Below are positions 3,353 to 7,613 of a stretch of DNA of 33,276 nt, one piece after another (the stretch's first letter is position 1; each line of letters begins with the position of its first letter). This stretch comes from an uncultured Methanobrevibacter sp. (lineage in GTDB: Archaea; Methanobacteriota; Methanobacteria; Methanobacteriales; Methanobacteriaceae): NCBI GenBank assembly GCA_902796575.1, contig CADBPS010000020.1:1-33276 (forward strand), given 5' to 3'. The position numbers were made by a program, and so were the translations under genes. A model generated the notes under the pieces. That model had not been told where the DNA came from. It worked only from the letters and a program-made list of their open reading frames with translations, and did no database searches.

Positions 3353-4468
3353 ATGAATAAGAGTGATTTAGAAAGAAACTATTATATGCTGAAAGGACCT
3401 CTTGCAAAAAAAGGTTATGACTGGTGGTGGCACTCTTTAACTGCATATAATAAGGAAACGGGTGAAGCAAAACCATTTTTTATTGAATATTTTGTATGTA
3501 ACCCTGCATTAGCTGAGGATGAACCTGTATTAGGTCAAGATCCTGAAAATCAAAAACTCGGAAAAAAACCATCTTACTGTATGATTAAAGTTGGAACATG
3601 GGGTAAAAATCCAAAACAAATCCATAATTTTTACTCGATGAAGGAATTTAATTGTCCCGACGATAAATTGGATATTCGTGTCGGAGACTGTTCCCTGTCT
3701 GAAACCCATATGATAGGATCATGTAAAGTAACAGAACAGGATGCTAAAGACCATCCCGAATACATGTCTGATGCCGGCGACATGAGATGGGATTTGGATA
3801 TTGACAAACAAATCACATTCAATGTCGGTTATGGAGCAAGCAAACTGTTTAGAAAATTAAATTCATTTGAAATGTTCTGGCATGCAGAAGGAATTAAAAC
3901 TCAATACAAAGGTTCAATATGGTTAGATGGTGTTGAATATGAAGTAATTCCTGAAAAATCATATGGTTATTCAGATAAAAACTGGGGTGGCGACTTTACA
4001 AGCCCATGGCTTTGGATTTCATCATGCAACATTACCAGCCTGATAACCGGAAAGAAATTAAATAATTCTGCATTTGAAGCTGGAGGCGGAAGACCTAAAG
4101 CCTTCGGTATTGAAATTCCCCGTAAATTACTAATAGGTTTTTACTATGAGGGAGAAATGTATGAATACAATTTTGCCAGATTCTGGAATCTGGTTAAGGT
4201 TGATTTCGATTTTGAAGAAGGTGATGAAGTCAACACATGGCATGTCAATGCATCCAACAAGAATTCACGCATGGAACTGGTTCTTTACTGTAAACGTGAC
4301 GAGATGCTGCTAATCAATTATGAAGCACCAAACGGTAAAAAACTCCACAATAGACTATGGAATGGTGGAAACGGATGGGGTGAAATCAAATTATATAAAA
4401 AAGACGGTACTTTAATCGATCACGTTAAAATTGAAAATGCAGGATGTGAATATGGAGAGTATTGCTGA
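3353..4468 (+). CDS. Tocopherol cyclase-like protein
   Basis: This 371-residue protein has no signal peptide or membrane segment and is rich in Trp, Tyr and Gly. Conserved blocks match the tocopherol cyclase (VTE1/SLR1737-like) fold family: KGYDWWWHSLTAYN (residues 20-33), SDKNWGGDF (207-215) followed by PWLWI (218-222), AGGG (243-246), YEGEMYEY plus a nearby FW (265-278), and a C-terminal GWGEIKLYKKDG. In plants the enzyme closes the chromanol ring of prenylated quinols. Archaea do not make tocopherol, so the substrate here is unknown; a prenyl-bearing compound is a reasonable guess. GGAGG eight bases upstream fixes the ATG at 3353. Its stop overlaps the start of a phytol kinase-like gene, so the two act together. 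Confidence 0.7.
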   Translation: MNKSDLERNYYMLKGPLAKKGYDWWWHSLTAYNKETGEAKPFFIEYFVCNPALAEDEPVLGQDPENQKLGKKPSYCMIKVGTWGKNPKQIHNFYSMKEFNCPDDKLDIRVGDCSLSETHMIGSCKVTEQDAKDHPEYMSDAGDMRWDLDIDKQITFNVGYGASKLFRKLNSFEMFWHAEGIKTQYKGSIWLDGVEYEVIPEKSYGYSDKNWGGDFTSPWLWISSCNITSLITGKKLNNSAFEAGGGRPKAFGIEIPRKLLIGFYYEGEMYEYNFARFWNLVKVDFDFEEGDEVNTWHVNASNKNSRMELVLYCKRDEMLLINYEAPNGKKLHNRLWNGGNGWGEIKLYKKDGTLIDHVKIENAGCEYGEYC

Positions 4469-5139
4469 TGATATTAACTGATGTTGTTGCGCTGATAATC
4501 GTTTATTTATATGTAGCTGTAATTTTTGTAATAGCGGAAAGGGTTCTAAATACAAGACCTGAAGTTTCACGTAAATTTTTACATATAATGGTAGGTAATA
4601 TGATTTTTGCCATGCCATTCTTCTCAGATCCATGGGTTATGATATTGTTTCTGACATTACCTATTACAGTAGTGCTATTCTTCCTGACGGAATATTCCCC
4701 TATTAAAATTAAAAACAGTGTAACTGAATCAGGCCATGCATTAGGATTATTCTTCTACGCAGGTATTTGGACTGTTTTGATTGCAGTTTTCAGTAATCGC
4801 CTGTGGATTGTTGCATTAGCTATTGTTCCAATGGTATACGGTGACGGTTTTGCGGCATTAATCGGTCAAAAATTCGGTAAATTCAAATACTATATATTCG
4901 GCGGTGAAAAATCACTGGAAGGATCACTGACCATGTTTGTAATAACTACAGTTATGAGCGTTTTCGTCTGGATGATTTTCACATCAATCGGATATCCGAT
5001 GCCTAAATTCAACATTGTTTACATAATTGCAATTTCAGCTGTTGCAACAGTATGTGAAGCTTTAAGTTATGGAGGTATTGACAATCTGACTGTTCCAGCC
5101 ATAACTTCAATTTTGTATTATTTAGTAGCTATTTCATAA
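4468..5139 (+). CDS. Phytol/dolichol kinase-like membrane protein
   Basis: This 223-residue protein has about seven membrane segments and carries the full set of phytol/dolichol kinase (VTE5/VTE6/SEC59-like) blocks. These are SRKFLHIMVGN (34-44), YGDGFAALIGQKFG (124-137), GGEKSLEGSLTMF (145-157) and EALSYGGIDNLTVP (197-210). Family members phosphorylate polyprenyl alcohols or polyprenyl phosphates using CTP, at the membrane. The ATG at 4468 shares one base with the TGA of the upstream cyclase-like gene and has GGAGAG eight bases before it, which implies translational coupling. A role in archaeal lipid salvage or activation (geranylgeraniol, phytol-like alcohols) is plausible, but the substrate is not shown by sequence. 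Confidence 0.8.
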   Translation: MILTDVVALIIVYLYVAVIFVIAERVLNTRPEVSRKFLHIMVGNMIFAMPFFSDPWVMILFLTLPITVVLFFLTEYSPIKIKNSVTESGHALGLFFYAGIWTVLIAVFSNRLWIVALAIVPMVYGDGFAALIGQKFGKFKYYIFGGEKSLEGSLTMFVITTVMSVFVWMIFTSIGYPMPKFNIVYIIAISAVATVCEALSYGGIDNLTVPAITSILYYLVAIS

Positions 5140-5404: not shown

Positions 5405-6313
5405 ATGGTAAAAGTTAAAACAAAAATAAGAATTGACAAACCTGATGATAAACTTGTCAAAAGACAAGCCACCCACGCAGGAGATGTGATCCATGAATTT
5501 TTTGAACTTCCAGGCAAGTTTGTCTATGCTCATCCTAATGACTATCCGCAACACAAATATTCAAAAGTGGATTCGGCATACTACGTTGAAAAAGATGGAG
5601 AACTTTTAACCATCAATCGTGAAGATGAAAGCAGCCATATTGATGATGAAGTCATTGAAAAGATTAACAGATACAGATATTTACTGGAATGTGCATTTAA
5701 AAAACCAGTAATGTCTGTTATTACAACACCCGTTCCAGTAAACAAACCTTCAATTAAAATTAAAATTTCTCCAACAACGTTAATAGATATCAAAGTGATT
5801 TCATATCCAAAACTTGATGGTCGAAAAAGATTAAATAAGATAAAAAGAAAAATAAATGATAACGAGAGCTTAACTAATGTTGAAGCTATGAATCTGGTCA
5901 TGATTCCAAAGATGTTTACATCAAGAAATGATGAGATTCTTGAAGAAGTGTGTCGTTTGCTTAAGAAGGCTCATCTCATTGAAGAATTCTTCAAACATGA
6001 ACTGATATGTGAAATGAGATATGTCATTCACAAATATGCTAAAACATTAAAAGACATCAACCGTTTAGAAGGAGTGATTGGTTTGCAAAACTCATGCATA
6101 GCAATGAAACAACGCGATCAGTATTTACAAGACAAATTTCTTAAACAAGGCATCGAACAAGGAATTGAACAAGGAATTGAACAAGGTGTTAAAAAAGGTT
6201 CATTTGAACTAGCCCTTAAAATCAAACGAGCCTTCGGTTTAGAAAGTGCCCTTGAAATGACCGACTTTACACGTGAAGAACTCGAAAACGAAAAATTAAA
6301 CGAAACAGAATAA
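5405..6313 (+). CDS. Rpn/PD-(D/E)XK transposase-like protein
   Basis: This 302-residue protein resembles the Rpn (recombination-promoting nuclease)/PD-(D/E)XK transposase-like family. It shows HAGDVIHEFFELPG near the N-terminus, a KVDSAYY stretch with Asp56, a following beta-rich segment (LLTINREDESSHI, about 68-80), a helical middle and a C-terminal tail of GIEQ repeats. That tail is typical of the family. Asp56 and an acidic residue near 73-75 are candidate metal ligands, but the usual ExQ/ExK core is not clean, so activity is uncertain. The GGAG lies directly against the ATG, leaving no spacer; no other start exists before the upstream stop at 5366, so the true start is doubtful. It stands alone and ends in a hairpin. 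Confidence 0.65.
   Translation: MVKVKTKIRIDKPDDKLVKRQATHAGDVIHEFFELPGKFVYAHPNDYPQHKYSKVDSAYYVEKDGELLTINREDESSHIDDEVIEKINRYRYLLECAFKKPVMSVITTPVPVNKPSIKIKISPTTLIDIKVISYPKLDGRKRLNKIKRKINDNESLTNVEAMNLVMIPKMFTSRNDEILEEVCRLLKKAHLIEEFFKHELICEMRYVIHKYAKTLKDINRLEGVIGLQNSCIAMKQRDQYLQDKFLKQGIEQGIEQGIEQGVKKGSFELALKIKRAFGLESALEMTDFTREELENEKLNETE
6143..6190 (+). repeat. Four tandem 12-bp units coding GIEQ repeats
   Basis: Four head-to-tail 12-base units of the form GAACAAGGAATT (two exact, two varied) encode the QG-I-E repeats at about residue 247 of the Rpn-like protein. Units are in frame, so slippage would lengthen or shorten the tail without breaking the gene. Confidence 0.9.
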
Positions 6314-7010: not shown

Positions 7011-7100
7011 GCACGTTAAATATAATTAATTGTCTTTCAGAAGCCTTTAAAAAAAATGTTTCTATAATCCTTAAATCAAAGTTATAAAGGAAGATTGAAA

Positions 7101-7613
7101 ATGAACATTAAAAAAATTTTCTTTGCATTAACTGTAGTAACATTGATGATTGGCAGTGCTTGTGCTGCTGGTGTAAACAATTTAAAAATAGATGGATATA
7201 ATAATACATACAATTCTAATTATAGTTCTACATATATAAGCAATGACGGCAACTATGGAGCATATATTTACAAAAACATTAATAGCAACCTTTATGATGA
7301 TGATGGCCCTTACGACTACGATGACGACGATTACTTCGACTATGACGACGACCCTTACGACTACGATGACGACTGTTATGGATATCACGCTTTGGATATT
7401 GACTCACAAGTCACCAAAAATCAGGACAACACAGCCAGCTTCACAGATTATGATGATGCAGAACATGGTATTATAGAAGTAGTGCAGATCGGTGGCGAAA
7501 AGTATACCGTTGTATTCTGGGCAAAAGATTCAAGTAACACAAATAACACAAATTTAATGTCTAAATTAAATGATTTTAATAAAGATAATGGTGTTTCTCC
7601 AGTAGCATTCTAA
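7101..7613 (+). CDS. Small secreted Asp/Tyr-rich protein
   Basis: This 170-residue protein starts with a clear signal peptide (MNIKKIFFALTVVTLMIGSA, cleavage likely after ACAA). A Asn/Ser/Tyr-rich stretch follows, then a block of about 35 residues made almost only of Asp and Tyr (PYDYDDD repeats, residues about 69-95). The C-terminal domain of about 50 residues contains EVVQIGGEKYTVVFWAKDSS and ends SPVAF. The Asp/Tyr block could bind divalent cations or other surface polymers; that is inference. GGAAG seven bases upstream supports the ATG at 7101 over a TTG at 7095. I do not recognise the family beyond similar small secreted proteins expected in Methanobrevibacter. It has its own promoter and a T-rich 3' end. 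Confidence 0.8.
   Translation: MNIKKIFFALTVVTLMIGSACAAGVNNLKIDGYNNTYNSNYSSTYISNDGNYGAYIYKNINSNLYDDDGPYDYDDDDYFDYDDDPYDYDDDCYGYHALDIDSQVTKNQDNTASFTDYDDAEHGIIEVVQIGGEKYTVVFWAKDSSNTNNTNLMSKLNDFNKDNGVSPVAF
7307..7373 (+). repeat. 22-bp direct repeat coding PYDYDDD
   Basis: An identical 22-base segment beginning CCCTTACGACTACG occurs at 7307-7328 and 7352-7373, 45 bases apart, so the unit is 15 codons. It lies within the Asp/Tyr block. The exactness suggests recent duplication or slippage. Confidence 0.85.

Follow-up and report, generated by a model that had tools for sequence, protein, structure and literature searches.

A tocopherol-cyclase-like gene linked to a prenol-kinase-like gene in gut methanogens, a possible mobile isoprenoid-handling unit

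Introduction

The tocopherol cyclases of plants and cyanobacteria carry the motif YxEKNWG, and tocopherol-cyclase-like proteins of heterotrophic bacteria, together with the motif they share, were noted in 2016 with no function assigned and no mention of archaea (PMC4963081). A 'tocopherol cyclase' annotation in M. ruminantium has likewise been published already, PMC4963081 and PMC7772410 being cited jointly for it and for the heterotroph proteins. In CrtC, mutagenesis has established that D268 together with W110, W283 and W285 is required for protonation and carbocation stabilisation (PMC12402844). As for prenol kinases, PfPolK is a CTP-dependent enzyme with a charged clamp formed by R29-K30-H33 (PMC10849223), while geranylgeraniol (GGOH) kinase and geranylgeranyl-phosphate (GGP) kinase activities are ascribed to Sulfolobus (Ohnuma 1996, as cited in PMC9751614). 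According to the latter paper, proteins for the two-step phosphorylation of prenols have been identified in plants only. Literature searches on phytol or archaeol in the rumen, on mru_0432 and on archaeal polyprenol kinase returned nothing useful.

Here, a gene pair combining relatives of both enzyme types is described in a 33,276-nucleotide stretch of DNA from an uncultured Methanobrevibacter sp., referred to below as the window.

Results and Discussion

Organisation of the locus

The features of the locus are as follows.

3353..4468, + strand: tocopherol-cyclase-like gene (PF14249; AttH/CrtC two-barrel fold) encoding P0001, 371 aa, recognised by Pfam, AlphaFold, Foldseek and invariant residues
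4468..5139, + strand: gene of a prenol/phytol/dolichol-kinase-like integral membrane protein, P0002, 223 aa, with eight predicted helices and conserved blocks
4466..4470, + strand: TGATG stop/start overlap joining the pair by one base
3974..3976, + strand: codon of D208, the presumed general acid in YSDKNWG, invariant in 49 relatives and lined up with DRQWG in kievitone hydratase and with DRSWG in 25-phosphosteroid lyase (25-PSL)
4007..4015, + strand: codons of W219-L220-W221, the presumed carbocation-stabilising Trp pair, both Trp invariant in 49 relatives, with CrtC W283/W285 as precedent (PMC12402844)

Both reading frames are open over these coordinates, and base 4468 is common to the TGA stop of the first gene (4466-4468) and the ATG start of the second (4468-4470), which confirms the one-base overlap described in the original prediction. 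The sequence blocks quoted there are all present in P0001, at residues 206-215 (YSDKNWGGDF, quoted from its Ser), 218-222 (PWLWI), 243-246 (AGGG) and 265-272 (YEGEMYEY).

Further along the window, positions 7095-7613 encode a secreted-looking protein with Asp/Tyr-rich repeats (YDDDDYFDYDDD) and no Pfam match. At 5405-6313 the window species has an Rpn-like nuclease/transposase reading frame (weak TIGR01784 match), at the place where other species of the same genus (g1) carry, behind the pair, 2TM proteins, a LytTR regulator and DUF3021 (L034:5513-6918; also L033, L036, L037, L051 and L052), possibly a regulatory cassette.

P0001 is predicted to have the AttH/CrtC-type two-barrel fold, with an aspartate in place of glutamate

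The resemblance of the first gene product to tocopherol cyclase was upheld by profile search, in which PF14249 (Tocopherol_cycl) matched P0001 with 45 bits and E=1e-11 (45.3 bits when the gene was scored on the genome), above the gathering cut-off of 26.6 bits. This match is partial and covers model positions 151-334 of 335, that is, the C-terminal half only. Plain sequence searches of the PDB with P0001 and with the kinase returned nothing, and structure prediction was therefore needed. The AlphaFold model of P0001, built on an alignment of 49 sequences, reached a pLDDT of 92.3 and a pTM of 0.92, and Foldseek aligned it over the entire protein, unlike the half-model Pfam match. Convincing matches in the PDB were all of the two-barrel AttH/CrtC-type fold (probability 1.0), namely Fsa2 (E=2.8e-9) and a related pericyclase, AttH NE1406 (7e-9), kievitone hydratase (6e-8) and 25-PSL (about 5e-7), with only 7-14% identity to P0001 in the structural alignments.

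Residues D208, K209, N210, W211, G212, W219 and W221 and the block GYDWWWH are invariant across the 49 relatives, all of which carry the motif as YxDKNWG, with Asp and not Glu. In profile alignments the P0001 segment SYGYSDKNWG..PWLW was placed over YDRQWG..WTWF of kievitone hydratase (E=0.34) and over RDRSWG of 25-PSL, the sequence E values of 0.3-0.5 not being significant alone. Taken with the fold, the invariant residues and the CrtC precedent, this motif suggests that P0001 uses acid catalysis, its target being an isoprenoid-like double bond or a leaving group, and the cyclase homologue is probably an acid catalyst acting on an isoprenoid-like lipid. For its reaction, hydration or dehydration would be the first choice and kinase-coupled elimination of phosphate the second.

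The YxEKNWG motif of the photosynthetic tocopherol cyclases (EC 5.5.1.24) is not present in P0001, which has D208 in place of its Glu. The family label given by the original prediction stands, but it does not make the protein a tocopherol cyclase, given the Asp of all 49 relatives and a fold in which the other solved members act as hydratase, phosphosteroid lyase or pericyclase.

P0002 is a putative isoprenoid-alcohol kinase

No Pfam or NCBIfam profile matched P0002, and PF01148 was reached by only one of nine relatives (E=0.013). Of the two profile checks proposed in the original prediction, the cyclase one was thus borne out by PF14249 while the curated kinase profile gave no match. The conserved blocks are nevertheless strict: R35, H39, D126-G127, A129, G133, K148, G152-S153, E197 and D205-N206 are fixed in the archaeal and bacterial relatives alike, K36 is nearly invariant, and the spacing of RKxxH is that of the charged clamp of PfPolK. 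The model of P0002 has eight helices, with the CTP-using membrane enzyme CdsA as the top solved structural match (probability 0.99, E=0.037), and a homologue is fused to DUF92 in two bacteria (G144 and G146), the fusion of about 490 aa with a VTE6-type DUF92 domain being a single reading frame in two Bacillota (L154:1471-2943; L153, - strand). These invariant residues, helices, CdsA match and fusions together agree with the resemblance to phytol/dolichol kinase first proposed for the gene, and the assignment of P0002 as a putative CTP-using kinase of isoprenoid alcohols, like the phytol, farnesol and dolichol kinases, is well supported by them; that the kinase acts on an isoprenoid alcohol is very likely.

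In a MAG labelled Chloroflexi, a kinase homologue is fused behind a TauE/SafE sulfite-exporter domain (L157:634-2136).

The pair is linked in methanogens and unlinked in bacteria

P0001 was found in 85 of 139 Methanobacteriaceae genomes, and in the phylum set in 85 of 152 genomes, belonging to four genera, all of them Methanobacteriaceae. By their named relatives the archaeal carriers are Methanobrevibacter and Methanosphaera from gut samples, mostly ruminant, and the distribution is patchy, the gene being widespread in ruminant Methanobrevibacter and absent from M. smithii-like genomes. Among the 139 genomes, 74 have both genes, 11 the cyclase-like gene only (nine Methanosphaera and G007 among them) and 16 the kinase only (including G041 and the M. 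smithii-like G037 and G042). The two genes are adjacent on one strand in 71 of the 74, a linkage far beyond chance and one that extends the predicted pairing well past a single strain; only G065 and G060 hold both genes unlinked, and in G027 the linkage rests on two contigs that overlap by 55 nt. Nearly all g1 genomes have a gap of 2-8 nt between the genes, against 61-220 nt in a second genus, g9, and the two genera also have different genes flanking the pair. In G067 the cyclase-like gene is a 39-residue remnant beside an intact kinase (L052, 4295-4639).

Two further observations concern individual genomes: an apparent frameshift lies near the 3' end of the cyclase-like gene in G019 (C1:613090-613164), and in Methanosphaera a MacB/FtsX-type permease and a LolD-like ATPase come after the gene, with no kinase (L039:9199-11384, L040:9103-11279).

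A scan of genome contigs gave at least 591 relatives of P0001, while a search of plasmids with P0001 gave no match. Among the matches listed, the best non-archaeal relatives are Bacillota, 55-66% identical, with a few Chloroflexota and one Treponema; in sampled Lachnospiraceae, the family of G144, 20 of 150 genomes have a relative. The survey of adjacency held in other gut archaea but not in bacteria, where no kinase lies beside the cyclase-like gene at any of 54 loci and any such kinase occurs in only 8 of 30 cyclase-bearing genomes tested. No conserved neighbour was found across the 54 loci either, the commonest, at about 6-7 of them, being a flavin oxidoreductase of the OYE type, in many cases together with an SDR. 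Since bacterial carriers mostly do without the kinase and have no conserved neighbour, a substrate of the P0001 type must exist in bacteria too, and the kinase-free loci imply that the cyclase-like protein works there without it.

In a subgroup of gut Bacillota, the cyclase-like gene lies near the OYE-type flavin oxidoreductase and/or the SDR, sometimes with an aldehyde:ferredoxin oxidoreductase (L101, L102, L112, L119, L123, L131 and L132).

This distribution bears on whether P0001 might act in the gut on dietary tocopherols or tocopherolquinols, forming or opening their chromanol ring. Membership of PF14249 and the gut and rumen setting of the archaeal copies would suit such a tocochromanol metabolism, yet the acid residue differs (YxDKNWG against YxEKNWG), no tocopherol pathway genes lie beside P0001, and its close relatives include Fusibacter, Paenibacillus and the bioreactor organism Galacturonibacter, which we take not to be gut organisms, so that we regard it as very improbable. 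Tocopherol synthesis is not supported, and the doubt on this point in the original prediction was well placed.

The kinase has an older partner, a TMPK-like protein

Where the kinase occurs without the cyclase-like gene, it usually adjoins a P-loop protein resembling thymidylate kinase (TMPK-like), and in Methanobrevibacter-like genomes the kinase has CofH as its other neighbour. In Methanobacterium-like genomes the kinase lies beside a UbiA prenyltransferase matching the profile PRK12884/PRK12882, which was taken as a DGGGP synthase because no other protein of this type there matched as well, or at all. The following feature represents the TMPK-like protein.

G000 (window genome) C128:12487-13053 (L227:4988-5557), with counterparts at L133:6325-6885 and L142:6850-7422: diverged TMPK-like paralogue with the P-loop GLDGSGKDT

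Kinase and TMPK-like protein are both present in 87 of the 139 genomes and both absent from 45, leaving seven discordant, several of them incomplete assemblies (Fisher p=4e-28, a value that ignores phylogeny). The score of the TMPK-like protein does not reach the dTMP kinase cut-off, a different protein exceeds this cut-off in 26 of 27 genomes (the exception, G060, having a partial dTMP kinase match), and the DR motif of the TMPK-like protein has Ser or Val in place of Asp; this protein is therefore not the dTMP kinase, and may be a second, prenyl-phosphate kinase, a role assigned here tentatively.

In plants the phytyl-phosphate kinase VTE6 is a DUF92 protein, and a DUF92/VTE6 homologue is present in most genomes, including that of the window. 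As an obligatory second kinase it was rejected, since DUF92 and kinase are discordant in six genomes (DUF92 without kinase in G114, G117 and G007; kinase without DUF92 in G133, G137 and G025) and it is the TMPK-like protein that tracks the kinase instead. The single absences of DUF92 in G133, G137 and G025 count for little because these assemblies are 89-91% complete, and the homologue could act as second kinase in place of the TMPK-like protein.

The position of the kinase beside a DGGGP-synthase-type prenyltransferase in the deeper lineages suggests that its product feeds ether-lipid synthesis. It also weakens the argument of the original prediction that a new reaction was likely because no prenyltransferase adjoined the pair, while its isoprenoid theme was judged right: the context of the pair points away from vitamin E synthesis and towards a role in processing isoprenoids that are related to archaeal membrane lipids. 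The same neighbour, together with the chemistry of the P0001 fold and that of hydroxyarchaeol, could speak for lipid tailoring, in which P0001 would hydrate or cyclise a double bond of an unsaturated ether-lipid precursor (for instance on the way to hydroxyarchaeol-type chains) and the kinase would recycle the freed C20 alcohol. That reading is quite improbable, as proteins 55-66% identical to P0001 occur in Bacillota, in which we know of no ether-linked isoprenoid membrane lipids.

The cyclase-like gene is a later acquisition from Bacillota

In the tree, the archaeal cyclase-like sequences sit between those of Bacillota, at two or more positions far from each other. Gut methanogens thus acquired the gene repeatedly, from Bacillota and at least twice. 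Clade I comprises the sequences of the window, g9, Methanosphaera and G007; the other half of the tree holds those of G065/G060 and of G025, probably two further acquisition events. In G025/G027, too, the separately acquired cyclase is found immediately upstream of a kinase and a TMPK-like gene.

A single clade (support 100/99) unites the kinases that accompany the clade-I cyclase; it spans g1 and g9 and includes those of G041 and G067, which have lost the cyclase, while the native-context kinases of g1 and g9 fall apart from it. At the native site, the M. smithii-like G042 has the order CofH-kinase-TMPK-like, while in the window genome, G039 and G043 CofH is followed directly by the TMPK-like gene and the kinase is missing; in g9 (G033 and G019) the TMPK-like gene has no kinase beside it. 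The simplest reading is that a cyclase-kinase cassette moved between genera and the native kinase was lost, the alternative being relocation of the native kinase gene followed by transfer. An origin of the pair as such in the ancestor of Methanobacteriaceae was ruled out by the trees. The kinase is the older part, old in this family, and the cyclase-like gene was added to it by horizontal transfer. The pair proposed as a functional unit is linked in methanogens as predicted, but it is not an ancestral unit, its cyclase being used without the kinase in bacteria and Methanosphaera.

This history weighs on two other explanations. In the first, the kinase would phosphorylate a tertiary isoprenoid or sterol-like alcohol and P0001 would eliminate the phosphate to give an alkene, amounting to an ATP/CTP-driven dehydration. 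Such a split between kinase and lyase is established for 25-OH steroids in Sterolibacterium, whose 25-hydroxysteroid kinase (25-HSK) works in tandem with 25-PSL (PMC8449060), and 25-PSL has both the P0001 fold (E about 5e-7) and a DRxWG site; with bacterial carriers mostly lacking the kinase, and the kinase predating the cyclase and having a partner of its own, the coupling appears improbable. In the second, the two genes would serve unrelated processes and be merely co-inherited in a mobile cassette, as each occurs without the other and the bacterial copies of the cyclase are unlinked to a kinase. We consider this unlikely to a similar extent, in view of the adjacency in 71 of 74 genomes across different genomic settings, the second, independent linkage in G025/G027 and the standing of the cyclase-linked kinase in place of the native one.

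Proposed role of the pair

The explanation preferred here is a mobile, co-inherited isoprenoid-handling unit. P0002 would phosphorylate a C20 prenol, geranylgeraniol or phytol, derived from turnover or from the gut, and the TMPK-like protein (or DUF92) would add a second phosphate to give a C20 diphosphate feeding GGGP/DGGGP synthase and hence archaeal ether lipids. P0001 would be a cofactor-free acid catalyst in which the proton from Asp208 goes to an isoprenoid C=C or to a leaving group attached to it, and Trp219 and Trp221, with the N-terminal GYDWWWH block, stabilise the carbocation. Judged by fold and motif, the outcome could be hydration, its reverse or ring closure, and P0001 would most likely supply or remove the alcohol that the kinase phosphorylates. 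In outline this chain is a reasonable though tentative proposal; in all its detail it is doubtful. Equally doubtful is the fuller scheme of two-kinase salvage of plant- or membrane-derived C20 alcohols into ether lipids, in which the TMPK paralogue would act on prenyl phosphates, the cyclase-fold enzyme captured from Bacillota would widen the range of usable isoprenoids, and cassettes would displace the native kinase.

The kinase/TMPK-like module provides concrete candidate genes for the archaeal GGOH and GGP kinase activities of 1996, as these are relayed in the later literature, and this candidate pair is present in M. smithii-like and M. ruminantium-like genomes. The archaeal linkage to a kinase is, to our knowledge, the first functional clue for the cyclase-like gene, whose patchy presence in methanogens offers natural comparisons. 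Should phytol or other plant isoprenoids be built into the membranes of gut methanogens, diet would be tied directly to methanogen lipid supply.

Comparison with known systems

P0001 shares with the tocopherol cyclases VTE1/SXD1/slr1737 (PF14249, EC 5.5.1.24) the Pfam family, above cut-off, and its YxDKNWG and WxW blocks resemble YxEKNWG and FPxxWxW of the plant and cyanobacterial enzymes. It differs from them in belonging to a Bacillota-centred subfamily, in having Asp for Glu, in covering half of the Pfam model and in that no tocopherol pathway is seen. Relative to the heterotroph proteins noted before (PMC4963081), the linkage to a kinase and the horizontal transfer to methanogens are added here. 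Kievitone hydratase, 25-PSL, the Fsa2-type pericyclases and AttH resemble P0001 in fold as found by Foldseek, kievitone hydratase, as far as the profile alignments go, also in the Asp-x-x-Trp-Gly site and Trp pair and 25-PSL in DRxWG, while CrtC was compared by published residue roles only and not by Foldseek; the substrates differ.

P0002 in turn has the RKxxH clamp, the GDG, KSxEGS and E...DN blocks and the eight helices of VTE5, FOLK, dolichol kinase and PfPolK, but it belongs to an archaeal subclade with no curated family match and has a TMPK-like protein rather than DUF92 as its partner. Finally, the Sulfolobus activities, as far as they are described in the citing paper, consist of two successive kinases acting on C20 prenols in archaea, which is the role proposed here for P0002 and its TMPK-like partner.
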